Below are positions 19,965-32,529 of a stretch of DNA of 64,000 nucleotides, in pieces. Positions within the stretch are counted from its first letter, which is position 1. Every line of letters begins with the position of its first letter. The notes beneath the pieces were generated by a model, which made no database searches, was not told the DNA's origin, and saw only the letters and a list, made by a program, of their open reading frames with translations. The stretch comes from Rhodoferax lithotrophicus (lineage in GTDB: Bacteria > Pseudomonadota > Gammaproteobacteria > Burkholderiales > Burkholderiaceae_C). The translations under genes and the position numbers were made by a program. The DNA lies in the NCBI RefSeq assembly GCF_019973615.1, contig NZ_AP024238.1, positions 3,245,989-3,309,988 on the forward strand, read 5' to 3'.

Positions 19965-20780
19965 TTAACCGGCAACCACACGCAAAGGCTGTTGGGTGGT
20001 TTGTAGTGCCAGCAAACCCTGCATCACATCACCCACCACCATCACACTGGGGCTGGCCAAATTTTCACGGACGACCGTCTGCGCCAGTTCACTCAGCCTA
20101 CACACCACATAGCGCTGACCAGGCTGGCTAGCGTTTTGAATGATGGCCACCGGGGTGCTGTGCGGCAAGCCACACAACAAACCTTGCTCAATGTGAGCTA
20201 CCCCCGTCACACCCATGTAAATCACCAGAGTCAAACGTACACGATGGGCTGTGGTGGCCAGTTCGTGCCAATCGATGCCGGTATCGCCTGGCTTGGCGTG
20301 CCCGGTCACAAACACCACACCGTGTGCATGCTCGCGGTGCGTCAGCGGCACGCCCAGTGAGGTTACAGCGGCCAGACCGGCGGTGATGCCGTTGACCACG
20401 GTCACCGTGACACCTGCTGCGCGCAAATTTTCCACCTCTTCCCCACCCCGGCCAAAAACAAACGGATCACCACCTTTGAGGCGCACCACCCGCTCACCTT
20501 CACGCACAGCCAGCAGAATCAGTTTCTCAATAAACCGCTGGGGAGTTGACTTGCAGCCGCCGCGCTTGCCCACATGAATGATGCGTGTACCTTGCTTGGC
20601 AAGCGCCACCACCTCGTCGCTGACCAGGTCATCCACCAGAAGAAGGGTCGCCGACTCAATGGCTCTGAGCGCTTTGACGGTCAGCAATTCAGGGTCGCCC
20701 GGACCCGCACCAACCAGCGTGCACTGGCCCCATGCGGCATGTGCCTGGGTGAGCCCTGCAGATGTGGTGATATTTTTCAC
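19965..20780 (-). CDS. cobA: Uroporphyrinogen-III C-methyltransferase (siroheme pathway)
   Basis: A 271-residue SUMT that adds two methyl groups from S-adenosylmethionine to uroporphyrinogen III, making precorrin-2. It starts with GTG at 20780, supported by GAGGAG 7 bases before. Motifs are LVGAGPGDPELLTVKAL near the N-terminus, VGKRGGCKSTPQ, RLKGGDPFVFGRGGEE and GVPLTHRE. No CysG dehydrogenase/ferrochelatase part is fused, so precorrin-2 is finished by another enzyme. It is last in the nitrate assimilation operon, fitting the siroheme need of NirB. Confidence 0.95.
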   Translation of the reverse strand: MKNITTSAGLTQAHAAWGQCTLVGAGPGDPELLTVKALRAIESATLLLVDDLVSDEVVALAKQGTRIIHVGKRGGCKSTPQRFIEKLILLAVREGERVVRLKGGDPFVFGRGGEEVENLRAAGVTVTVVNGITAGLAAVTSLGVPLTHREHAHGVVFVTGHAKPGDTGIDWHELATTAHRVRLTLVIYMGVTGVAHIEQGLLCGLPHSTPVAIIQNASQPGQRYVVCRLSELAQTVVRENLASPSVMVVGDVMQGLLALQTTQQPLRVVAG

Positions 20781-20807: not shown

Positions 20808-23681
20808 TCACGCGGGGGCAGCCTGCATTTGCCGCACCATACGCTGTAACTGCGGTACACATGAGCCGCAATTGGTGCCACATTTCAGAGCCGATTGCAG
20901 TGATGCCAGTTTGTCACCAGGCTCGCTGGTGCAGCTCTTCAGGTGTGACGCAATAGCCATGTCGGTCACGTTAAAACAGGTACAGACTGGCGTGCCGCGC
21001 GACACCACGGGCAGCGGCGGCGTGGCGCCCGGTACCAGCAAGGCACGACCATAAGAATGGGCGGGCAACTTGTCTTTGAGCAGCGTGGTGATCCAGCTTT
21101 GGGCGCGGGTATCACCCGCCAGCAGAAAGCTGTCAAGCGAAGTCTGGGTGTCGCCCTCCCGCAGGTGAATGGCCCGCCGTTGTCCGCGCTTGTGATCTGA
21201 ATAACGCAAGACATTTACACCGTCAAGGCGCAACAAAGCCTCAATTTTCTCCAGCACCACATCCGGCACAGGCTGGTGGTGGGCGGCTCGAAACTGCAAA
21301 CCACAACACTCAGAGGCCCCCCCATGAGGTGCGCCATCAGAAAACGGCACCACACTGGCAAAGGCAAACTCCCGCAACAATGCCTGAAGCGCCATGAGGA
21401 CAGTCAGCACACTGGCCTCAGGCAGCCAGGCCACGGCCAAAAGGTTCCACGGCAAATCCGCCTTCAGAATCTTGACGGCGCTGTGCTTGAACTCAGGCTG
21501 TTTGGAATCTGGGCAAAACACTGATGTGGTGAGCGCATTAACCCCTGCCAGCCGTTGACCGGTAGCGCTGATGCCACTCAGAAACTCTTCACCCCAATGC
21601 ATCGCGATAAAGGCCTGATTCACCGCCACTTCTGCGCTGGCTTGCACTGGCAGCATGATGGAGCCCTGCTTGCTGGTGACGTGCACCAGTTCACCGGGCT
21701 GGAGTGCCAGCTTGGCCAGGTCCTGCGGGTGCAGGGCCACCACAGGTTCGCTGGCATGACCAAATAATCGCCCCAGCGTACCGGTGCGGCTCATGCCATG
21801 CCACTGGTCACGCAAGCGGCCCGTGGTGAGTGAAAACGGGTAGCGGGCACTGCGTGGCTCAGCGACCGGACGATAGACGGTGCTGACAAAGCGGGCTTTG
21901 CCATCTGGTGTGGGGAAGACGGCATCTTCGTAAAGTCTTGCCTGGCCTTGCTGTTCACCCGCTTTCAAGGGCCATTGCTGGGGGGCTTGCTCCAGCATGG
22001 CGTAACTCATGCCGGTGATGTCCAGGTCACGGCCACGGGTGGATTCACGGTGTTCATTCCAGATCGACTCGGGGTTGGTGTAGGGAAAGAGCGTACGTGA
22101 ACCCGTCTCCGGGATCGGCATCCGCGGGGGGAGCAGGGCTTCCAGACGCTGCGCGAAATGGGTGGCAATGTGCCAGTCGTGGCGAGCTTCTCCGTTGGGG
22201 CGGATGGCGGCGCGCACACGACTGATGCGCCGCTCTGAATTGGTCACCGTGCCTTCTTTTTCGCCCCAGGTGGTGGCGGGCAACAGCAGATCCGCATAGG
22301 CACAAGTGGCGGTGCTGGCAAAGGCTTCTTGCACCACCACAAACTCGACGCGCTCAAGTGCCCGGCGCACGGTGGCTTGATCGGGCATACTTTGCGCCGG
22401 GTTGGTACAGGCAATCCACAAGGCCTTGATTTCACCGTCGGCCGCCGCCTGGAATAGTTCCACCGCAGTTTTGCCGGGTTGGGAGGGCACCTCTGGCACC
22501 CCCCAAAGTGCGGCCACCTCCCTGCGGTGCACCGGGTTGCCCAGATCGCGGTGACCCGACAGCAAATTGGCCATCCCCCCCACTTCACGGCCGCCCATGG
22601 CATTGGGCTGGCCGGTCAGTGAAAATGGTCCGGCACCGGGTTTCCCAATTTGTCCGGTAGCCAGATGCAGGTTGATCAGTGCGGCATTTTTGGCGCTGCC
22701 ACTGCTGGATTGGCTCAACCCCTGGCAATACAGACTTAAGGTTGGTTTTCGGCCTGTAGCCCTTGTTGTATCTGCGCTAGAAGCTATAAAGTTTGAATCA
22801 TCCCGGGTGTCTAGACCGGCAAACAGGCGCGCTGCCTGCAGCAAATCAGCCTGTGAGATGCCGCAGATCTGCGCCACCAACTCAGGTGTGGCATCACGCA
22901 CCGTGGTTTTGAGCGCATCAAAACCGCTGGTATGGGCGGCCATAAACGCCTGATCCACCCAACCCTCCCACAACATGAGGTGCAACATGCCGTTGAACAG
23001 CATCACATCGGTGCCCGGCAAGATCGGCAGATACACATCGGCAATGTCTGCGGTATCCGTCTTGCGCGGATCCACCACAATGATTTTCAGGGCTGGATTG
23101 GTTTTGCGGGCGTCTTCAATGCGCCTGAACAGGATCGGGTGCGCATAAGCCGTGTTGGAACCCACGATAAAAATGGTGTCCGCATGGCCGATATCGTCAT
23201 AACAACTGGGCGGTGCATCCATACCCAATGCCTGTTTGTAGCCAGCGACTGCGCTGCTCATACACAGGCGCGAGTTGCTATCAATGTTGTTGGTGCCGAT
23301 CAGGCCTTTGACGAGTTTGTTGAAGACGTAATAGTCTTCGGTGAGCAACTGGCCGGAGATGTAAAACCCCACTGCATCCGGGCCGTGCTGTGTGATGGTA
23401 CGGGCAAAACGCTGAGCCGCCAGATCAAGCGCGTGATCCCAGCTGATCTGCTGCGTTGGGCCATGGCGTTGCAAGCGCTGCAAAGGTTGCAACAAGCGGG
23501 TTTGCCCGGTCACCACACTGCTGGCCGTCAGGTGCAGGGTCGACCCCTTGCTGCACAAGCGCCCGAAGTTGGCCGGATGGTCGGGGTCACCACGCACGCC
23601 GGTGATCTGCTTGCCATCGGATTGAATGATCACCCCGCAGCCCACGCCGCAGTAAGGACAGGTTGAACGTGTTTCAGTCAT
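20808..23681 (-). CDS. nasA: Assimilatory nitrate reductase catalytic subunit with C-terminal BFD domain
   Basis: A 957-residue cytoplasmic molybdoenzyme reducing nitrate to nitrite. The N-terminal [4Fe-4S] ligands are CPYCGVGC and the later FGRLCSKGS. The bis-MGD core contains NSRLCMSSAVAGYK and YCQGLSQSSSGSAKNAALIN, and the C-terminal lobe has TGRLRDQWHGMSRTG. The end is a BFD-type [2Fe-2S] domain (CTCFNVTD ... CGTNCGSC). An ATG 9 bases earlier (23690) is equally possible; neither has a clear ribosome site. A copy of the 37-bp repeat is inserted in frame near residues 299-311, just before SLYCQG. No flavin reductase subunit is adjacent. Confidence 0.95.
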   Translation of the reverse strand: MTETRSTCPYCGVGCGVIIQSDGKQITGVRGDPDHPANFGRLCSKGSTLHLTASSVVTGQTRLLQPLQRLQRHGPTQQISWDHALDLAAQRFARTITQHGPDAVGFYISGQLLTEDYYVFNKLVKGLIGTNNIDSNSRLCMSSAVAGYKQALGMDAPPSCYDDIGHADTIFIVGSNTAYAHPILFRRIEDARKTNPALKIIVVDPRKTDTADIADVYLPILPGTDVMLFNGMLHLMLWEGWVDQAFMAAHTSGFDALKTTVRDATPELVAQICGISQADLLQAARLFAGLDTRDDSNFIASSADTTRATGRKPTLSLYCQGLSQSSSGSAKNAALINLHLATGQIGKPGAGPFSLTGQPNAMGGREVGGMANLLSGHRDLGNPVHRREVAALWGVPEVPSQPGKTAVELFQAAADGEIKALWIACTNPAQSMPDQATVRRALERVEFVVVQEAFASTATCAYADLLLPATTWGEKEGTVTNSERRISRVRAAIRPNGEARHDWHIATHFAQRLEALLPPRMPIPETGSRTLFPYTNPESIWNEHRESTRGRDLDITGMSYAMLEQAPQQWPLKAGEQQGQARLYEDAVFPTPDGKARFVSTVYRPVAEPRSARYPFSLTTGRLRDQWHGMSRTGTLGRLFGHASEPVVALHPQDLAKLALQPGELVHVTSKQGSIMLPVQASAEVAVNQAFIAMHWGEEFLSGISATGQRLAGVNALTTSVFCPDSKQPEFKHSAVKILKADLPWNLLAVAWLPEASVLTVLMALQALLREFAFASVVPFSDGAPHGGASECCGLQFRAAHHQPVPDVVLEKIEALLRLDGVNVLRYSDHKRGQRRAIHLREGDTQTSLDSFLLAGDTRAQSWITTLLKDKLPAHSYGRALLVPGATPPLPVVSRGTPVCTCFNVTDMAIASHLKSCTSEPGDKLASLQSALKCGTNCGSCVPQLQRMVRQMQAAPA
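22751..22787 (-). repeat. 37-bp palindromic repeat, copy 2 (in frame within nasA)
   Basis: On the coding strand it reads ATAGCTTCTAGCGC-N9-AAGGGCTACAGGCC, encoding IASSADTTRATGR. It adds residues just before the conserved SLYCQGLSQSS segment of NasA and is in the same reading frame as copies 4, 8, 9 and 12. Confidence 0.85.
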
Positions 23682-23741
23682 GATGAGCATTTCTGGCAAG
23701 GGCGAACCGTGGTGTGTTGGAGGTGTCTTGATCTGTCGCGG

Positions 23742-24125
23742 TCAGGCACACACCGTATGCTGGGTCGGGCCCGCCACCGGACGGGTCAGATTAATGGCGT
23801 GACTGGCCAACTCGGCAACCAGCAGGAACACTTGACCCGCTTCCACCTTGACGCTGAATTTGGGTGTGCAGCCGTCGTCAGGCGCAGCCGCTTGGCCGGT
23901 GCCCAAACCAATCGTCCAGTTATGCAGCGGGCAGGCCACGCTGGTGCCAAACACAATGCCCTGGCTCAGCGGGCCGCCTTTGTGTGGACAGCGATCCAGC
24001 AGGGCAAACACCTCATTTTTGTCGTTGCGAAACACCGCCACGTCCAATCCTTGGGCACGGCTCACCCGGCGTGAACCCAGAACGGGAATATCTTCGATGG
24101 CGCAAACCAGTGTCCAGTTGTTCAT
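23742..24125 (-). CDS. nirD: Nitrite reductase small subunit
   Basis: A 127-residue Rieske-fold protein that partners NirB. The Rieske ligands are present (RCPHKGGPLSQG and ACPLHNW), as in actinobacterial and many betaproteobacterial NirD and unlike the cluster-less enterobacterial form. It lies between nasA (60 bases) and the PilJ-domain gene (66 bases, with a palindromic repeat between), so nirB and nirD are not adjacent here. Confidence 0.93.
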   Translation of the reverse strand: MNNWTLVCAIEDIPVLGSRRVSRAQGLDVAVFRNDKNEVFALLDRCPHKGGPLSQGIVFGTSVACPLHNWTIGLGTGQAAAPDDGCTPKFSVKVEAGQVFLLVAELASHAINLTRPVAGPTQHTVCA

Positions 24126-24191: not shown

Positions 24192-24989
24192 TCAAACTTT
24201 GATGGCGGAGTACAAGGCGGTCACCGAGTCCATCGTAGTCAGCAGGTTTTCGCTGGCCTGAAACACCTCCGTCATGGATCGGTCTGTGCCGCTGCCAGGT
24301 TTCAGTTTTTGCAACGCGTTGTCAAAAAACACCCATTGCCCTTGCGCCTGCTGCAGCTCTTGCCGGATGCGTGTCGTGGCCAGCGGTGAGTCATACAAAA
24401 CCGCATTGGCACCGACAAATTCGCTGCGGGCCTTCATGATCTCGGCGATGCTGCTGGCAGCACCCACATCCAGCCGGGCCGCCAGATAGAACTTGGCCAT
24501 ACGTTGGCTGAGCATGCGTTGTCGACCCGCCAGATTAACCAGTTTGCCGACAGGTTTGCCCAGAGTGGCCTCGTATTGACCGGTTCCCTGGTTGGCCAAG
24601 GCCAGCACCTGGCTGTCTTGCATCAACAGATGGGCTGCAGCGCTTTTATCGGGCTGGGCACCAATCAACGCCGTCTTGTAATCACTCCACTCCAGCTCCA
24701 GCTTGCTGTAGGTGAGCTTGATCTCCGGGCTGGGCGCAAACGCTTTGAGCTCAATGAGTTGCCGGTCAAACAAGGCCATGGACTTGTCCAGCACACGCTG
24801 GGCATTGGGAGGCTCGATACCCTGCACCAATGCCAACCAGGCCTTGGCCATACGCTGGCTGAGCATGCGTTGTCGCCCGGCCTTGTTGATGGCATCCGGC
24901 AGGTCAAGCACCTGTGTGTGGGCCGAGGTGCCCAACCAGAGGGCCCATGGTGCGGCACCAAGTGCGGTCAAATAGGTTCTGCGTTTCAT
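24192..24989 (-). CDS. Exported PilJ-domain protein without output domain
   Basis: A 265-residue protein starting at 24989, with KRRTYLTALGAAPWALWLG as a Tat-like or Sec signal. The mature part contains two copies of the PilJ/NIT-like helical motif, NKAGRQRMLSQRMAKAW and NLAGRQRMLSQRMAKFY, about 130 residues apart. This is the type IV pili methyl-accepting chemotaxis transducer N-terminal domain, related to the periplasmic nitrate-binding bundle of NarX. There is no later membrane helix, kinase, HAMP or GGDEF part, so it should be free in the periplasm. Its place between nirB and nirD suggests a role tied to nitrate/nitrite, but no function is established. Confidence 0.8.
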   Translation of the reverse strand: MKRRTYLTALGAAPWALWLGTSAHTQVLDLPDAINKAGRQRMLSQRMAKAWLALVQGIEPPNAQRVLDKSMALFDRQLIELKAFAPSPEIKLTYSKLELEWSDYKTALIGAQPDKSAAAHLLMQDSQVLALANQGTGQYEATLGKPVGKLVNLAGRQRMLSQRMAKFYLAARLDVGAASSIAEIMKARSEFVGANAVLYDSPLATTRIRQELQQAQGQWVFFDNALQKLKPGSGTDRSMTEVFQASENLLTTMDSVTALYSAIKV

Positions 24990-25017
24990 CAAAGGTTTCC
25001 GTAGGTTGGGCGCAGAC

Positions 25018-27477
25018 TCAAGCTGGCTGCGCTTCTATCTTGATGGTGTGAAACTGCCGGGTGTCCACCGCTGCCTTGTCAAATTCAAACCATGGATCGG
25101 GTTCACCGTCCAGCGCAAATTGCAGTTGCGCCCACAGCGCCTGGCGACCCGCAGCGTCTTCCACAATGCGTTTCTTGACGTAATCCAGACCAACACGGTT
25201 CACATAGTGCACGGTGCGTTCCAGGTACCAGCCTTCGGTGCGGTACAACTCACAAAACGCGCCGGTGTATTCCAGCACCTCAGCGGCAGTTTTGACCTTG
25301 ACCAGAAAGTGCGCGACTTCGGTCTTGATACCGCCGTTGCCCGCCACATACATTTCCCAGCCGCTATCGACACCGATGATGCCCACATCCTTGATACCCG
25401 CCTCGGCACAGTTGCGCGGGCAACCACTCACGGCAAATTTCACCTTATGCGGGGCGTACATGCGCCACATGGCGCGCTCCAGATCTTTACCCATCTGGGT
25501 GCTGTCTTGGGTGCCCATGCGGCACCATTCACTGCCAACACAGGTTTTGACAGTGCGTAACGCCTTGGCATAAGCATGGCCGCTGGGCATGCCAATATCT
25601 TGCCAGACCGCCTGCAGGTCTTCTTTTTTCACACCCAGCAAATCGATGCGCTGGCCGCCGGTGACCTTGACGGTGGGAATCTTGTACTTGTCCACCACAT
25701 CGGCAATCCGGCGCAATTCACTGGCCGTGGTTTCACCACCCCACATGCGGGGAATCACACTGTAGGTGCCATCTTTCTGGATGTTGGCATGGCTGCGTTC
25801 GTTGATGAAGCGGCTTTGTGGGTCGTCTCGTGCCTCTTTGGGCCAGGTGCTGATCAGGTAGTAATTCACCGCCGGGCGGCAAGACGCACAACCATTGGGC
25901 GTTTTCCACTCCAGAAAGGCAAAGACATCGGCGATTTTGAGCAGTTTGTTGCTCTTGATGGCATCGCGCACGGCTTGGTGCCCATGGTCGGTGCAGGCGC
26001 ACATGGCCTTGGTTTTGGGTGTGGCCGAGTAGTCACCACCAGCCGTAAACATCAGCAACTGCTCGACCAGCCCGGTACAAGAGCCGCATGAAGCACTGGC
26101 CTTGGTGTGTTTGCGTACTTCATCCAGCGTGAACAGGCCTTTTTCCTTGATGGCTTTGCAGATGGTGCCTTTGGTGACGCCATTGCAGCCGCAGACCTCG
26201 TCGCTGTCTTTCATGGCGGCGGCTTTGTTCTGGCCCTGGTGGCCGACGTCGCCGATGTTGCTCTCGCCAAACATCAGTTTGTCGCGGATGTCGGCAATCG
26301 GGCGACCGTCGCGCAGCAGCTTGAAATACCAGCTGCCATCGACCGTGTCGCCATACAGGCAGGCCCCAACCAGTTTGTCGTCCTTGAGCACCAGTTTTTT
26401 GTACACCCCGCCTTGGGGGTCACTCATGATGATGTCTTCAAAGCCTTCGCCGCCGGAAAAGTTGCCTGCGCTGAACAAATCAATGCCGGTGACCTTGAGT
26501 TTGGTCGAGGTCAGCGAGCCGACATAGCGCCCAATGCCAAACTGCGCCAGATGGTTGGCCGCGACCTTGGCCTGCTCAAACAGCGGGGCCACCAGGCCGT
26601 AAGCGGTGCCACGGTGTGCGGCACATTCACCCACCGAGTAGATACGTGCGTCGGTGGTGGTTTGCAGCGTGTCGTTGACCACAATACCTTTGTCGCAGTG
26701 CAGGCGCATGCTCTGGGCCAGTTCGGTGTTGGGCCGAATGCCCACCGCCATCACGACCAGATCGGCGGGTACCTCGGTGCCGTCTTTGAATTGGATGGCG
26801 GTCACGCGGCCATCGGGGCCACCAACCAGCGCCTGGGTTTGGGCCCCCATCAGGAAATTGAGGCCACGTTGTTCCAGGGATTTTTGCAGCAGCTTGCCCG
26901 CCACGTCGTCCAGCTGGCGGTCCATCAAGGTGGGCATGACGTGCACCACACTCACCGTCATACCGCGCAGCATCAGGCCGTTGGCGGCTTCCAGCCCGAG
27001 CAAACCGCCCCCAATCACGACCGCGTGTTTGTACTGGGTGGCGGCATCGATCATGGCTTGGGTGTCGGCAATGTCGCGGTAGGCAATCACCCCTTTCAAA
27101 TCCTTGCCCGGAATCGGCAGCATGAAGGGGTTGGAGCCAGTGCACAGCAGCAGGCGGTCGTATTCAGCGCTGAGGGTTTCACCCGCAGCGTTTTGGGCAT
27201 GTACCAGGCGTTTGACCCGATCCACCGAGGTGACACGCCAGCCCGCATGTAAGGTGATGTGGTGGTCGGTGTACCACTCAAACGAGTTCAGCACGATCTC
27301 GTCAAGAGTTTGTTCACCGGCCAGCACCGGGCTGAGCAAGATGCGGTTGTAGTTGGGATGTGGCTCGGCACCAAAGACGGTGATGTCGTACAGCTCGGGG
27401 GCGATTTTGAGCAGTTCTTCCAGGGTACGCACACCGGCCATGCCGTTGCCCACCATCACGAGTTTCATTTTTTTCAT
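25018..27477 (-). CDS. nirB: Nitrite reductase [NAD(P)H] large subunit
   Basis: An 819-residue cytoplasmic enzyme reducing nitrite to ammonium with NAD(P)H. Order: FAD/NAD-binding domains (VMVGNGMAGVRTLEELL at the N-terminus, VVIGGGLLGLEAANGL near residue 150), two BFD-type segments (CGCNGVTKGTIC ... CGSCTGLVEQ and a second CACTDHG ... GCASCRP), then the siroheme/[4Fe-4S] half with TCVGSEWCRMGTQDS and SGCPRNCAEAG supplying the four cysteines. GGAGAA 5-10 bases before the ATG is a good ribosome site. It is inside the nrtABC-nirB-nirD-nasA-cobA operon. Confidence 0.96.
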   Translation of the reverse strand: MKKMKLVMVGNGMAGVRTLEELLKIAPELYDITVFGAEPHPNYNRILLSPVLAGEQTLDEIVLNSFEWYTDHHITLHAGWRVTSVDRVKRLVHAQNAAGETLSAEYDRLLLCTGSNPFMLPIPGKDLKGVIAYRDIADTQAMIDAATQYKHAVVIGGGLLGLEAANGLMLRGMTVSVVHVMPTLMDRQLDDVAGKLLQKSLEQRGLNFLMGAQTQALVGGPDGRVTAIQFKDGTEVPADLVVMAVGIRPNTELAQSMRLHCDKGIVVNDTLQTTTDARIYSVGECAAHRGTAYGLVAPLFEQAKVAANHLAQFGIGRYVGSLTSTKLKVTGIDLFSAGNFSGGEGFEDIIMSDPQGGVYKKLVLKDDKLVGACLYGDTVDGSWYFKLLRDGRPIADIRDKLMFGESNIGDVGHQGQNKAAAMKDSDEVCGCNGVTKGTICKAIKEKGLFTLDEVRKHTKASASCGSCTGLVEQLLMFTAGGDYSATPKTKAMCACTDHGHQAVRDAIKSNKLLKIADVFAFLEWKTPNGCASCRPAVNYYLISTWPKEARDDPQSRFINERSHANIQKDGTYSVIPRMWGGETTASELRRIADVVDKYKIPTVKVTGGQRIDLLGVKKEDLQAVWQDIGMPSGHAYAKALRTVKTCVGSEWCRMGTQDSTQMGKDLERAMWRMYAPHKVKFAVSGCPRNCAEAGIKDVGIIGVDSGWEMYVAGNGGIKTEVAHFLVKVKTAAEVLEYTGAFCELYRTEGWYLERTVHYVNRVGLDYVKKRIVEDAAGRQALWAQLQFALDGEPDPWFEFDKAAVDTRQFHTIKIEAQPA

Positions 27478-27502: not shown

Positions 27503-28390
27503 TCACAAGGACAGCGCCAACACGGCGGTGATCCGGTTGTTTGATGCCACCGGCATCACGATGGCATCACCCATCAGGGCGGGTACACCACTGGCGAAGA
27601 CCTGACCCACCGTGCCCATGCCCAGTTCCAGCCGGTCGTCACTGATCGGCTCGGCAATCGAGTGGTATTCCGAAAAACTGAAGCTGTGTGACAAGTGGGA
27701 GACCAGGGCATCGGGCTGCCAGACATCCACCTGCCTGGCAATCGGCGTGGCCAGTGCACTCAAAAAGGCCAGCACATAAACGTTGCCGTCGGTCGCACTG
27801 CAGGGCAGGGCAAAACCCCGGTTGATGCCCACCTTGACCGCGCTGTCAGCACGCAAAAAGCCGGAACCCCGCCCCAGATCGGGCATAAACACCGGGGCCT
27901 GGTTCTCCCAAGTGCGCCCGGGCAAGCCGGTGCCCTGCCTGAAACTGGTGCTGCGCGAGAGAAATTCAAAGGTGTCGCCGGTAGTGCCGTAATAGCCGTC
28001 CAGCAGCGTCATGTCGCTGGATTTTTCGGGCTGGTTGTGCCACAGCTCCACCGCCCCGGCATGCTCCTCATCATCGCCACAAAACAGCACCACCACCGTG
28101 CTCAGACGCTCGCCAACGAACACCGGTAGAGCCACCGCGCAGGTCAGGCCTGCGGCCTTGGCGGCCGCGGCGCGGTGGAAACCAGGGGCCTGCAGGCTCT
28201 TGAGCATCAGCGGGTGACCCGCCTCCCAGGCCTGGCCGGGCAAACCTTCGCCTTTGCCAAAACACAGGTTACGGGTGGCGGCCTCCAACCGTTGGGCATC
28301 CCCAAACAAACCACCGCCAAATTCCAGCAAGTCGCCATCGGCACTGGATACCCAGTATTCAACCGCGCGGATGAAAGTTTTCTTGTTCAT
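27503..28390 (-). CDS. Tandem GAF-domain protein in the nitrate operon
   Basis: A 295-residue soluble protein built of two similar GAF-like halves. Each has a G-x-GLPG-x-W segment: GEGLPGQAWEAG near residue 48 and GTGLPGRTWENQ near 153. A weaker third occurrence is GMGTVGQVFASG near 260. No kinase, helix-turn-helix or cyclase domain is fused. It sits between nrtC and nirB, 25 bases from nirB. A sensor or redox partner role in nitrate assimilation is an inference; no ligand can be named. Confidence 0.75.
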   Translation of the reverse strand: MNKKTFIRAVEYWVSSADGDLLEFGGGLFGDAQRLEAATRNLCFGKGEGLPGQAWEAGHPLMLKSLQAPGFHRAAAAKAAGLTCAVALPVFVGERLSTVVVLFCGDDEEHAGAVELWHNQPEKSSDMTLLDGYYGTTGDTFEFLSRSTSFRQGTGLPGRTWENQAPVFMPDLGRGSGFLRADSAVKVGINRGFALPCSATDGNVYVLAFLSALATPIARQVDVWQPDALVSHLSHSFSFSEYHSIAEPISDDRLELGMGTVGQVFASGVPALMGDAIVMPVASNNRITAVLALSL

Positions 28391-28408: not shown

Positions 28409-29245
28409 TCAGGCGGCTTTTTCCACATGGCTTTGCCGTGTGTACAAGAAGTCGATCACGGCCTTGCGGTACTGCACATAGTGGCGGTCTTCGGCCAGAG
28501 CCACCCGGTTGCGTGGGCGATCCAGCTTGACCGACAACACTTCACCGATGGTGGCCGAGGGGCCATTGGTCATCATCACGATCTTGTCGCTCAGCAACAC
28601 GGCTTCGTCCACATCATGGGTCACCATGACCACCGTGCTCTGGGTGCGGGCCACAATCTCCAGCAACTCGTCCTGCAGTTTGGCGCGGGTCAGCGCATCA
28701 AGTGCACCAAAAGGTTCGTCCATCAGCAGCACTTTGGGCTCCATGGCCAGGGCGCGGGCAATACCCACACGCTGTTTCATGCCACCGGATATCTCGCCGG
28801 GGCGTTTTTGCGCCGCTGCGGTCAAACCAACCATGTCCAGTGCCGCGTTGGTGCGCTGGGTCAGTTGGGCCTTGTTCTCGGACGCTGCGCCAGTGGATTT
28901 GTTGGCCGCACCAAACACCCGCTCGACACCCAGGTAAACGTTCTCGAAACAAGTCAACCAGGGCAATAGCGAGTGGTTCTGGAACACCACCGCACGGTCT
29001 GGGCCAGGGCCAACAATTTCCCGGTTGTCGCACAACAAGTGGCCCTGGGTGGGGGTGGTCAAGCCGGCGATCAGGTTCAGTAGCGTCGATTTGCCGCAAC
29101 CCGAGTGGCCGATCAGGGCGACAAATTCACCCTTGGCCACCGTCAGGTTGATGTCCCGCAGAGCGCAAAACGGGCCTTTTTTGGTCTTGAAAGTTTGCTC
29201 GACGTTGACAATGTCGATGAACTTGGTGGTTTGGTTGGCATGCAT
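28409..29245 (-). CDS. nrtC: Nitrate ABC transporter ATP-binding protein
   Basis: A 278-residue ATPase of the NrtD/SsuB/TauB class with Walker [10 protein letters not shown], signature [13 protein letters not shown], Walker [13 protein letters not shown] and switch VTHDVDEA. It lacks the NrtA-like C-terminal domain of cyanobacterial NrtC, so this is a single-domain ATPase. CTAAGGAA before the ATG is the ribosome site. With the permease 9 bases upstream and NrtA it forms the nitrate/nitrite importer. Confidence 0.92.
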
Positions 29246-29254
29246 GGTTTTTCC

Positions 29255-30187
29255 TTAGCTCTTGACTTCTTCAAAGGTAAAGGCCGTGGCAATCTTGATC
29301 AGTGCGTATTCCAGAATCAGCCCGACGATGCCAATCACAAAGATGGCGATGATGATGTTCTTGACGTTCAGGTTGTTCCACTCGTCCCAGACCCAGAAAC
29401 CGATGCCCACACCACCCGTCAACATCTCAGCGGCCACAATCACCAGCCAGGCCGTGCCGACCGCCAGGCGCACCCCGGTCAACATGTAGGGCAGCACCGA
29501 GGGGAACAGGATTTTGGTGACGATCTTCCACTCGCTCAGGTTCAAGACGCGGGCCACATTCATGTAGTCCTGCGGCACCCGTTGCACACCCACGGCGGTG
29601 TTGATGATCATCGGCCAGATCGAGCAGATGAAGATCGTCCAAATGGCAGCCGGATTGGCCCCCTTGAACACCAGCAGGCCAATCGGCAACCAGGCCAGTG
29701 GCGACACCGGGCGCAGCAGGCTGATCAGCGGGTTGAACATGCGGCTTAAAAACTCAAAGCGACCAATTGCAAAACCGGCCGGAATGCCCACCGCAGCGGC
29801 CAGGCCAAAACCCACGGCCACCCGCTCCAGGCTCATCAAAATGTTCCAGCCCACGCCCTGGTCGTTGGGGCCCGTGCGGTAAAACGGGTCGCTGAAAATC
29901 ACCACCGCTTGTTTGAAGGTATCGGTGGGCGACGGGATGCTGCTGGCGGTGCTGATGCTGACCAGCGCCCAGATCCCGATCAGCAGACCCAGGCCCAGCA
30001 GCGGAGGCAACACGGTCAGCACCAGGCCACGCCAGTCATAACCTGGTTTTTGAGGATATTTTTGGCCTGTAGCGCTTGTTGAATGTGCGCTAATAGCTAT
30101 TTTTTTCATAGTGTTTTGAGGTGCAGAAGAAGTGACAGGCTCGGAGCCTGCAGCTTCCTGTGGCGAGTGAAAAACGGCGCTGACCAT
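29255..30187 (-). CDS. nrtB: Nitrate ABC transporter permease
   Basis: A 310-residue permease. The start at 30187 (MVSAVFHSPQ) has AAGGAA 8-13 bases before it; the next ATG is 30110 (MKKIAISAH). Five or six membrane helices lie from about residue 55, and the EAA loop is near RVPQDYMNVARVLNLSEW. Residues 30-42 (IAISAHSTSATGQ) are encoded by a copy of the 37-bp palindromic repeat, so part of the cytoplasmic N-terminal tail is repeat-derived. Substrate nitrate is inferred from the operon. Confidence 0.92.
   Translation of the reverse strand: MVSAVFHSPQEAAGSEPVTSSAPQNTMKKIAISAHSTSATGQKYPQKPGYDWRGLVLTVLPPLLGLGLLIGIWALVSISTASSIPSPTDTFKQAVVIFSDPFYRTGPNDQGVGWNILMSLERVAVGFGLAAAVGIPAGFAIGRFEFLSRMFNPLISLLRPVSPLAWLPIGLLVFKGANPAAIWTIFICSIWPMIINTAVGVQRVPQDYMNVARVLNLSEWKIVTKILFPSVLPYMLTGVRLAVGTAWLVIVAAEMLTGGVGIGFWVWDEWNNLNVKNIIIAIFVIGIVGLILEYALIKIATAFTFEEVKS
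30064..30100 (-). repeat. 37-bp palindromic repeat, copy 4 (in frame within nrtB)
   Basis: On the coding strand ATAGCTATTAGCGC-N9-AAGCGCTACAGGCC, encoding IAISAHSTSATG in the permease's N-terminal tail. Confidence 0.88.
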
Positions 30188-30245
30188 GGTGTTTTCCTTA
30201 TCAAAGTGAGTGAGAGGCACGCAGGGCTCACCACGAGGGCTGCCG

Positions 30246-30301
30246 CACACCGGTGGAAGGGTGTGTAGCGGTCCTCAACAGTGGCAACGCGGCTACGTTG
30301 C
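30246..30301. terminator. Two hairpins between nrtA and nrtB
   Basis: CACACC/GGTGTG (30246-30265) and GCAACG/CGTTGC (30284-30301) lie in the 134-base gap. No T-run follows either, so they more likely protect the nrtA transcript end than stop transcription. Confidence 0.4.
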
Positions 30302-30321: not shown

Positions 30322-31566
30322 TCAGGCCTTGACTTTGAAGCCGTCGGCGTATTTCTTGGGGTCTTTGCCGTCCCAGACCACACCATCCATCAGTTTGCTG
30401 GTGCGCATCACGTCCTTGGGAACCGGCGTTTTGCTGGCCGTGGCAGCCTGTTTGTAGAGGTCGATCTGGTTGATCTCTTTGGCCACCGCCAGGTAATCAG
30501 GGTGGCCTTTCAGCAAACCCCAGCGTTTGTGCTGGGTCAGGAACCACATGCCGTCGGACAGGTAGGGGAAATTGACCGCACCGTCGTTGAAGAACTTCAT
30601 GTAGTTGGGGTCGTCCCAGGTTTTGCCCAGACCGTTTTGGTAACGTCCCAGAATACGCTGGTTGATGGCATCCACGCTGGTGTTGACATACGACTTGGCG
30701 GCAATCGTCTCGGCCATCTTGGATTTGTTTTGCAGCCCTGCATCAATCCATTTGCCGGCTTCCAGAATGGCAGCAGTCACGGCGCGTGCGGTGTTGGGGT
30801 ATTTTTTGACGAAGTCGCCGGTGGTACCCAGCACTTTTTCAGGGTGGTCTTTCCAGATGTCCTGGCTGGTGGCGGCGGTGATGCCAATGCCGTCAATGAT
30901 GGCGCGGTGGTTCCAGGGCTCACCCACGCTGTAGCCATCCATATTGCCCACACGCATGTTGGCCACCATTTGGGGTGGCGGCACGGTGATGACCTTGGCA
31001 TCTTTCATTGGATTGATGCCGTTGGCTGCCATCCAGTAATACAGCCACATGGCGTGGGTCCCCGTGGGAAAGGTTTGGGCAAAGGTGTATTCGCGCTTTT
31101 CTGCCGCCATCAGTTTGGCCAGGCTGGGGCCATCCACCGCGCCTTTGTCCGCCAGTTTTTTGCTCAAAGTGATGGCCTGGCCGTTGTTGTTCAGGGTCAT
31201 CAGCACCGCCATGTCTTTCTTCGGGCCACTGACACCCAGATGTACACCGTAGATCAGGCCATACAACACGTGGGCAAAGTCCAGCTCACCGGTGACCAGC
31301 TTGTCACGCACACCGGCCCAGCTGGCTTCTTTGGTAGGGACAATCTTCACACCGTATTTTTTGTCCAGCCCCAGCTCAGCGGCCATGACCACGCTGGCAC
31401 AGTCGGTCAGCGGAATAAAACCGATCTTGACCTCGGTTTTTTCCGGGGCATCCGAGCCCCCGGCATAGACCATGGAGCGCAGTGCCGGGCTGATGCCTGC
31501 CGCACCCACTGCGGCAGTTTGCAATACCGCACGGCGGCTGAGGCTGGATTTAAGAAGATCAGTCAT
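30322..31566 (-). CDS. nrtA: Nitrate-binding protein, Tat-exported
   Basis: A 414-residue binding protein of the NrtA/CmpA family. The N-terminus has SLSRRAVLQTAAVGAAG, a twin-arginine signal. KIGFIPLTDCASVVMAAELG and HVLYGLIYGVHLG are typical of nitrate-binding members. AAGGAA before the ATG is a good ribosome site. It heads nrtABC-nirB-nirD-nasA-cobA, and its leader carries a sigma-54 promoter and a NasT-type attenuator. Because it has an export signal it is the transporter's binding protein rather than the cytosolic sensor NasS. Confidence 0.94.
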   Translation of the reverse strand: MTDLLKSSLSRRAVLQTAAVGAAGISPALRSMVYAGGSDAPEKTEVKIGFIPLTDCASVVMAAELGLDKKYGVKIVPTKEASWAGVRDKLVTGELDFAHVLYGLIYGVHLGVSGPKKDMAVLMTLNNNGQAITLSKKLADKGAVDGPSLAKLMAAEKREYTFAQTFPTGTHAMWLYYWMAANGINPMKDAKVITVPPPQMVANMRVGNMDGYSVGEPWNHRAIIDGIGITAATSQDIWKDHPEKVLGTTGDFVKKYPNTARAVTAAILEAGKWIDAGLQNKSKMAETIAAKSYVNTSVDAINQRILGRYQNGLGKTWDDPNYMKFFNDGAVNFPYLSDGMWFLTQHKRWGLLKGHPDYLAVAKEINQIDLYKQAATASKTPVPKDVMRTSKLMDGVVWDGKDPKKYADGFKVKA

Positions 31567-31594: not shown

Positions 31595-31724
31595 TAAAAA
31601 AAGGCATCCTCACGTGGCCATCTGCAACCGCGAAGTTGCTGTATGCCCGTGGGGACGCCTTTGTCCTGTTTTGACCGTCACCACCCGCCGTTGGAAGGTA
31701 TCAGTCAAGTGACCATCATTGGTC
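31595..31724 (-). ncRNA. nas leader RNA: two hexaloop hairpins and an intrinsic attenuator
   Basis: Read on the minus strand, hairpin P1 is GACC-AATGAT-GGTC (31711-31724) and P2 is GGAC-AAAGGC-GTCC (31653-31666). Both have six-base loops with A at position 1 and G at position 4, the ANTAR recognition rule. P2 overlaps the 5' arm of a terminator: AGGCGTCCCCACG (31648-31660) pairs with CGTGAGGATGCCT (31602-31614) around a further hairpin, with one mismatch, and a run of seven T follows. P2 and the terminator are therefore mutually exclusive. NasT, an ANTAR protein, is encoded just upstream. Confidence 0.85.
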
Positions 31725-31737
31725 TTCCTGAATACCA

Positions 31738-31753
31738 TGCAATTGGCATGCCA
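31738..31753 (-). promoter_or_regulatory. Sigma-54 promoter of nrtA
   Basis: TGGCATGCCAATTGCA on the minus strand matches TGGCACGrNNNTTGCW almost fully, with correct GG to GC spacing. Transcription would begin near 31727, just before hairpin P1 of the leader. Confidence 0.85.
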
Positions 31754-31786
31754 GCCTGATCAATACCCTTCATAGCTACAAATTAA

Positions 31787-31884: not shown

Positions 31885-32529
31885 TCAGGACATCAAGTCG
31901 GCCACATCCAGCATACGCTGAGCCACCTCAGCCAACTTCAGCCCTTTATCCATGGCCGTTTTGCGCATTTTCTTGAAGGCCTCGTCTTCGCTCAGACCCT
32001 GGCGCTGCATCAGCAGCCCTTTGGCGCGGTCAATCAGCTTGCGGTCACGCAACTCGGCGCTGAGTTCATCGCGCTCACTCTGGGTGCTGGCCAGGGTTTG
32101 CAGCAAGGCCTGTTCGTGCTGGAAACGTGCCATCGCCACGTCCAGAATCGGGCGGATGCGCTCCGGCTTGAGACCGGCCACGATGTAGGCCGACACCCCG
32201 GCGGCCACGGCGGCACGGGCGTTGTTGCTGTCATCGTCATTGGTGAACATGACAATCGGACGGCGTGCGTCACGCGTGGCCATCACCACATGCTCCAACG
32301 CATCACGCGCATCACTCTCGGCATCCACAATGATCATGTCAGGCTGCAACTGGGCAATACGCTCGGTCAGAAACACGTCGGCAGGCAGACTGGCCACCAG
32401 GTTGAAGCCGTTTTCAAGCAGCCCGATGCGCAGGCTGCGTGAACGATCCGCCTGAGAACGCGCCTCATCGTCTGAGCTGGCTACTTCCAGGTCAGGGGCC
32501 ACCACCACAATACGCAAAGAGGGACTCAT
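31885..32529 (-). CDS. nasT: Nitrate-responsive ANTAR antiterminator NasT
   Basis: A 214-residue regulator. The N-terminal receiver-like domain (LRIVVV at the start, PDMIIVDAESDARDALE in the middle) has an extra stretch near residues 15-28, rich in Ser, Asp and Arg. The C-terminal ANTAR domain spans about residues 145-205 (RKLIDRAKGLLMQRQGLSED, then AFKKMRKTAMD). In Azotobacter and Paracoccus, NasT binds two-hairpin nas leaders and prevents termination when released by NasS. The matching RNA lies directly downstream here. No NasS gene is adjacent. Confidence 0.93.
   Translation of the reverse strand: MSPSLRIVVVAPDLEVASSDDEARSQADRSRSLRIGLLENGFNLVASLPADVFLTERIAQLQPDMIIVDAESDARDALEHVVMATRDARRPIVMFTNDDDSNNARAAVAAGVSAYIVAGLKPERIRPILDVAMARFQHEQALLQTLASTQSERDELSAELRDRKLIDRAKGLLMQRQGLSEDEAFKKMRKTAMDKGLKLAEVAQRMLDVADLMS

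Follow-up and report, generated by a model that had tools for sequence, protein, structure and literature searches.

Close counterparts of the leader analysed here belong to nitrate assimilation operons. Paracoccus denitrificans (nasTS-nasABGHC) and Azotobacter vinelandii share with it a NasT gene, a dual hexaloop, an overlap between the second hairpin (P2) and the terminator, and a nitrate assimilation operon. In Paracoccus, NasT binds the nasA leader, and mutation of a leader hairpin abolishes growth on nitrate (PMC3795266, PMC5424462); NtrC co-controls the nas genes in both Paracoccus and Azotobacter (PMC5424462). The Klebsiella nasF leader and its NasR protein likewise combine nitrate antitermination with two hexaloops bearing A at position 1 and G at position 4 (A1/G4), and SELEX with NasR revealed a preference for such loops together with a C:G closing pair (PMC7496416). 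NasR, however, bears its own nitrate-sensing NIT domain, whereas the NasT protein studied here is a REC-ANTAR protein without one. The eut leaders of Enterococcus faecalis also use a dual-hexaloop antiterminator and an ANTAR protein, but respond to ethanolamine through phosphorylation of EutV by EutW and control another operon. For EutV, both hexaloops must be near each other: natural linkers measure 5–12 nt, and linkers of 14 nt or with 20 additional nt drastically cut induction or abolished antitermination (PMC3369931, PMC8934654).

The window, i.e., the whole 64,000-nt stretch of Rhodoferax lithotrophicus DNA analysed, contains a leader of this kind, and all features of the window described below lie on the minus strand. 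We put the probability at about 0.88 that the leader of the nrtABC-nirBD-nasA-cobA operon is an NtrC/sigma-54-driven, NasT-dependent ANTAR antitermination switch with the hairpins HP2 and HP3 as its pair. It has the properties of ANTAR dual-hexaloop leaders, namely A1/G4 loops, a short linker, mutual exclusivity of P2 and terminator, C:G closing pairs and a covarying stem (HP2). Unlike nas leaders of systems with NasS, this one comes from a genome in which no NasS was found, has nrtABC as the first genes behind it and carries an extra 5' hairpin, HP1. The switch is of a known kind, and an optional third hexaloop and the missing NasS make it a variant.

The sequence bears out the original prediction of a sigma-54 promoter in front of an ANTAR-type attenuator, next to nasT and heading a nitrate assimilation operon, and this order is common to 66 leaders. 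Upstream, the leader adjoins nasT (31885–32529), which encodes an AmiR/NasT-type response regulator of 214 aa with a C-terminal ANTAR domain. The first gene 3' of the attenuator is nrtA (30322–31566), a nitrate-binding ABC substrate-binding protein with a twin-arginine (SRRAVL) signal, whose closest solved structure is 2g29 (NrtA). It is followed on the same strand, with gaps of 9–71 nt, by the permease gene nrtB (29255–30250), the ATPase gene nrtC (28409–29245; TIGR01184), a gene for a GAF-domain protein of 295 aa (27503–28390), nirB (25018–27477; TIGR02374), a gene for a probably exported PilJ-domain protein of 266 aa (24192–24992), nirD (23742–24125; TIGR02378), the assimilatory nitrate reductase gene nasA (20808–23699) and a cobA/cysG C-terminal-type uroporphyrinogen-III methyltransferase gene (sirohaem; 19965–20780). 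All genes of the predicted nrtABC-nirB-nirD-nasA-cobA operon are thus present, but the GAF and PilJ proteins had been omitted from it. By tblastn, the GAF gene turns up in just three of the set's related loci. The PilJ domain contains a NarX-like P-box motif, DAINKAGRQRMLSQRMAKAW, alongside the probable export signal, and the protein is possibly a periplasmic nitrate-binding protein.

Transcription would start from the sigma-54 promoter TGGCATGCCAATTGCA (31753–31738), a −24/−12 element with GG-N10-GC spacing that recurs at the same place in the relatives' leaders. A TGGCA(C/T)-type −24/−12 element occupies the promoter position in 66/66 aligned leaders, having partly served as a criterion for choosing them. 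The promoter geometry predicts that the transcript should begin at approximately 31727. At a distance of 120 nt 5' of the promoter's TGG lies an NtrC-type site, GCACAATTGCAGTGC (GCAC-N7-GTGC; 31873–31859), which the original prediction did not mention; such a site precedes the sigma-54 promoter in 60 of the 66 leaders, while shuffled upstream regions lead one to expect 0.8%. The genome holds one copy of rpoN and an NtrC gene scoring above the curated cut-off, which completes the set of −24/−12 element, NtrC-type site and the two regulator genes that marks a sigma-54/NtrC-controlled promoter. A scanner for sigma-70 promoters and simple terminators returned none in the leader region, its loop limit of 8 being one that misses the leader terminator. 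An ntrC mutant of Acidovorax citrulli shows no nitrate use (PMC10052978), and, judging from the gene order of relatives, the "nasS" of that study may well be nrtA.

For the structure of the leader, a NasT scan yielded 80 loci, mainly from Rhodoferax, Acidovorax and other Comamonadaceae, and 65 relatives plus the window make up the 66 leaders. Their order is promoter, HP1 (usually), HP2, HP3 and terminator. Folding of 31727–31596 gave three structures, HP1, HP2 and the terminator. HP2, TTGACTGATACCTTCC[AACGGC]GGGTGGTGACGGTCAA (31671–31708, loop 31692–31687), lies between HP1 and HP3, is the larger hairpin with a long imperfect stem, and is part of the minimum-energy fold; fold, alignment and covariation agree on it. 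The attenuator had been called complete, and its promoter, two named hairpins and terminator are all there, but HP2 had been overlooked, probably owing to the internal mismatches in its stem in the window. Its loop reads A1-A2-N-G4 in all 66 leaders; a scripted count arrived at 63/66 by choosing another stem in L014, L017 and L047, where the loops are AACGGC or AATGGC. The covariation search of orthologous leaders that the original prediction had proposed gave a strong signal centred on HP2, with a whole-structure value of 0.314 compared to 0.132 for shuffled and 0.04–0.07 for slid alignments, and 0/500 column shuffles reached the observed value. Two-sided changes were found in seven of the eight HP2 core pairs (alignment A3, 34 leaders), making HP2 the element best supported by covariation. 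In the window, a C-G pair closes the loops of both HP2 and HP3.

HP2 and not HP1 is identified as P1 because, with its entire stem formed, HP2 is separated from HP3 by about 4 nt, slightly under the eut range of 5–12 nt, compared with 44 nt from HP1 against an EutV limit of about 12 nt, and because the HP2 loop is kept in every leader with strong covariation, while the A1/G4 rule is broken in 24/66 HP1 loops. Several Acidovorax leaders (L045–L049, L053, L055, L057, L059, L061 and others) contain an extra hairpin with an unconstrained loop between HP2 and HP3, which may keep the effective linker short. The leader is the single one of its type genome-wide (109 bits, with the window itself belonging to the training set); the leader model's only second match falls at this position on the other strand and represents no further leader.

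HP3, GGAC[AAAGGC]GTCC (31653–31666), is P2 and shows A1/G4 in 66/66 leaders. Its stem does not vary within alignment A3, so covariation is silent on this pairing, and its conservation is equally accounted for by the terminator arm. The intrinsic terminator (31596–31662) ends in seven T (31602–31596), followed by nrtA with its ATG at 31566, as had been predicted for a P2 loop AAAGGC overlapping the terminator. The terminator segment folds at −34.8 kcal/mol, and RNAalifold independently recovers it from the aligned leaders. In a sequence truncated behind HP3, this hairpin folds instead of the terminator; the two are mutually exclusive because the 5' arm of the terminator consists of the HP3 loop and 3' arm.

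From this arrangement, we infer NasT binding, the order of events and the nitrate response as follows. Under nitrogen limitation, NtrC bound approximately 120 nt upstream would activate RNA polymerase-sigma-54 at 31738–31753, and by default the transcript would stop at the terminator (31662–31596). Active NasT, encoded just upstream, would engage the HP2 hexaloop AACGGC and then the HP3 hexaloop AAAGGC. With HP3 held as a hairpin, the 5' arm of the terminator would stay unpaired, and the polymerase could enter nrtA and the downstream genes.

Two Rfam families were considered as a home for the leader and rejected on score, P11 (RF00625; 20.2 bits, cut-off 70) and narK RNA (RF03032; 21.3 bits, cut-off 43.2), and at these cut-offs neither model found a match in nine related loci. 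We take P11 and the Pseudomonas nirBD-nasA-cobA leader to be NasT-dependent nas leaders. The narK RNA, named after a different downstream gene, has a consensus of a −24/−12-like stretch, a hairpin and GAC[AAAGAC]GUC, and matches 31752–31652 weakly. With their matches falling within 31603–31765, both models look like sigma-54 promoters followed by ANTAR dual-hexaloop leaders. The P11 model reads CCcG[AuaGAA]CgGG plus GGAC[AAAGGC]GUCC, though it is filed as an sRNA gene.

Although the leader accounts for the way in which NasT would gate the operon, the original statement that the attenuator explains nitrate induction of the whole operon went too far, as NasS was not found in the genome. Of the NasS-NasT system, the protein with REC-like and ANTAR parts is present. 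A search for a cytosolic NasS with or near nasT found none; the exported NrtA gave the best matches in the genome, together with a pair of cyanate-type binding proteins. A query with Paracoccus NasS matched only these same three proteins, and the NasS profile matched NrtA best with 304 bits. The two further high-scoring proteins are discarded as a hidden NasS, lying in a cyanate-type cluster with cyanase. These cyanate/nitrate-type binding proteins (L004, L005; G000:C1 4728780–4733161) have twin-arginine-like signals, and the cyanase gene belongs to their cluster. A second ANTAR gene (L002; G000 268164) is likewise dismissed as NasT, since its product is a REC-ANTAR regulator and a PAS/histidine-kinase gene immediately precedes it.

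Of the 151 family genomes surveyed, 76 have a NasT-like match (a few of them weak), and NasT without NasS is usual in the family. Five genomes (G231, G269, G276, G311 and G326) gave profile scores in the NasS range, but the proteins are exported type-2 NrtA. The wider class sample contains both layouts, nasT with a cytosolic NasS (L108) and nasT followed by an exported NrtA (L107, L109). The protein beside nasT at L120 (G055) has a twin-arginine signal and branches close to the root of the NasS clade, as though an exported binding protein had given rise to NasS.

Several explanations of how NasT is controlled here were weighed. One is that NasT is free of any hold by NrtA or NasS, with NtrC alone providing the nitrogen control or another sensor, e.g., the operon's GAF or PilJ protein, acting on NasT; we regard this as possible, with the odds somewhat against it. 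Several genomes have NasT without NasS, and both proteins named belong to the operon. However, an attenuator with an unregulated antiterminator has no evident use, and the GAF gene turned up in just the three related loci mentioned.

Another explanation, which we consider tentative and on balance unlikely, is that the Tat-exported NrtA folds in the cytoplasm prior to export and there sequesters NasT until nitrate binds, thereby replacing NasS. Besides the missing NasS, the position of nrtA directly after nasT in most relatives is in its favour, as is the twin-arginine motif present in the exported members of the window's NrtA lineage that were examined. Further support comes from loci in which an NrtA of the window's lineage, and not NasS, stands beside nasT without an export signal: L026, L163, L164 and L165 in one clade and L123, L130 and L133 in a second, which L121 joins on a very long branch. 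Each of the seven signal-less loci continues with another NrtA, which is exported and belongs to a different subfamily. In the NrtA tree, a quick one with SH-aLRT support only and long branches flagged, the two groups fall into separate, well supported clades, the first nested in exported Burkholderiales NrtA. The signal-less proteins retain nearly all of the expected nitrate-site residues in an alignment to NrtA 2g29, which we take to be W, Q, H, P and K. Elsewhere, NrtA has thus shed its export signal on at least two occasions yet remained beside nasT, and a regulatory role would be the simplest explanation for that retention after loss of export. This suggests, without proving it, that proteins of the NrtA lineage can sense nitrate for NasT. 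The basis is purely evolutionary, however, and some other genomes with NasT but no NasS (L138, L145 and L148) have an NrtA from a different subfamily that lacks the twin-arginine motif. Evidently, NasT can do without a partner of this kind, which speaks against a general NrtA-sensor rule.

The 5' hairpin HP1, GACC[AATGAT]GGTC (31711–31724), lies just 3' of the predicted start. In the minimum-energy fold, it is a 5-bp stem with the tetraloop AUGA, A1 of AATGAT pairing with U6, and this is probably its form in the window's lineage. Leaders of the Rhodoferax group frequently show a GNRA tetraloop here (GCGA, GCAA, GTAA), with a varying closing pair (A-U, G-C, C-G). The stem is kept with compensatory changes; in alignment A3, most of it does not vary and two pairs carry two-sided changes. 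HP1 is missing or replaced in a few leaders. In L012 (5582–5714), an unrelated hairpin with a GAAA tetraloop takes its place, which suggests that a 5' hairpin as such is maintained. A1/G4 occurs in 42/66 HP1 loops, split into 22/22 of the long-linker (Acidovorax-type) leaders versus 20/44 of the others. By itself, a 4-bp A1/G4 hexaloop is weak evidence, with about 0.05 expected per 130 nt in the window. Here, HP1 is most likely a 5' structural hairpin rather than P1 of the pair, and possibly a weak extra NasT site.

In an extension of the recruit-then-transfer model proposed for EutV, HP1 could offer NasT a third place to dock, increasing its local occupancy before the polymerase has made HP2 and HP3. 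All 22 Acidovorax-type leaders keep A1/A2/G4 in HP1 with eight distinct loop sequences, and AATGAT in the window conforms to the A1-A2-N-G4 consensus. Moreover, 24 further nasT-linked leaders outside the first set, each with P1, P2 and terminator, were inspected, and in 8 of them a further A1/G4 hexaloop lies no more than 100 nt upstream, compared to 0.9 expected and a maximum of 6 in 500 shuffles, which preserved base composition only, related leaders moreover not being independent. A/G was by far the commonest upstream loop class (8/22). Examples are L111, L125, L132, L133 and L164, with three canonical loops in succession in L164 and L111. Against such an array, which we hold to be doubtful, many HP1 loops in the window's lineage have lost the rule or turned GNRA-like, and in the window loop A1 is able to pair with U6. 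The published descriptions are of two hexaloops, with one additional single hexaloop noted in the EutX RNA (PMC8934654). We found no account of three hexaloops in an attenuator in the literature searched, most subscription journals lying outside the search.

The pair originally named, HP1 (AATGAT) with HP3 (AAAGGC), is very improbable: A1 and G4 do occur in both loops in the window and the HP1 stem is conserved, but the spacing exceeds the published limit, the loop rule fails in HP1 of the 24 leaders mentioned, the intervening and universally conserved HP2 fits far better, and Polaromonas leaders L082 and L089 have lost HP1 while retaining HP2 and HP3.

With HP2 and HP3 as the pair, the corrected assignment supplies testable bases for mutation. 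The survey also draws attention to the nitrate sensor in bacteria whose NasT lacks a NasS partner and to a possible contribution of a third hexaloop to the capture of NasT. A combined model for the large group of NasT bacteria without NasS, which we rate as speculative and rather unlikely, would have NrtA, in its folded form prior to Tat export, act as the cytoplasmic nitrate sensor that holds NasT until nitrate binds. NasS-like cytosolic sensors would then have evolved anew on two or more occasions, when NrtA shed its signal once uptake had passed to a second transporter; a three-hexaloop array in place of two may be a further feature of the leader. If NrtA does sense nitrate, the operon would be transcribed under the control of one of its own products, a transport protein intercepted during export.
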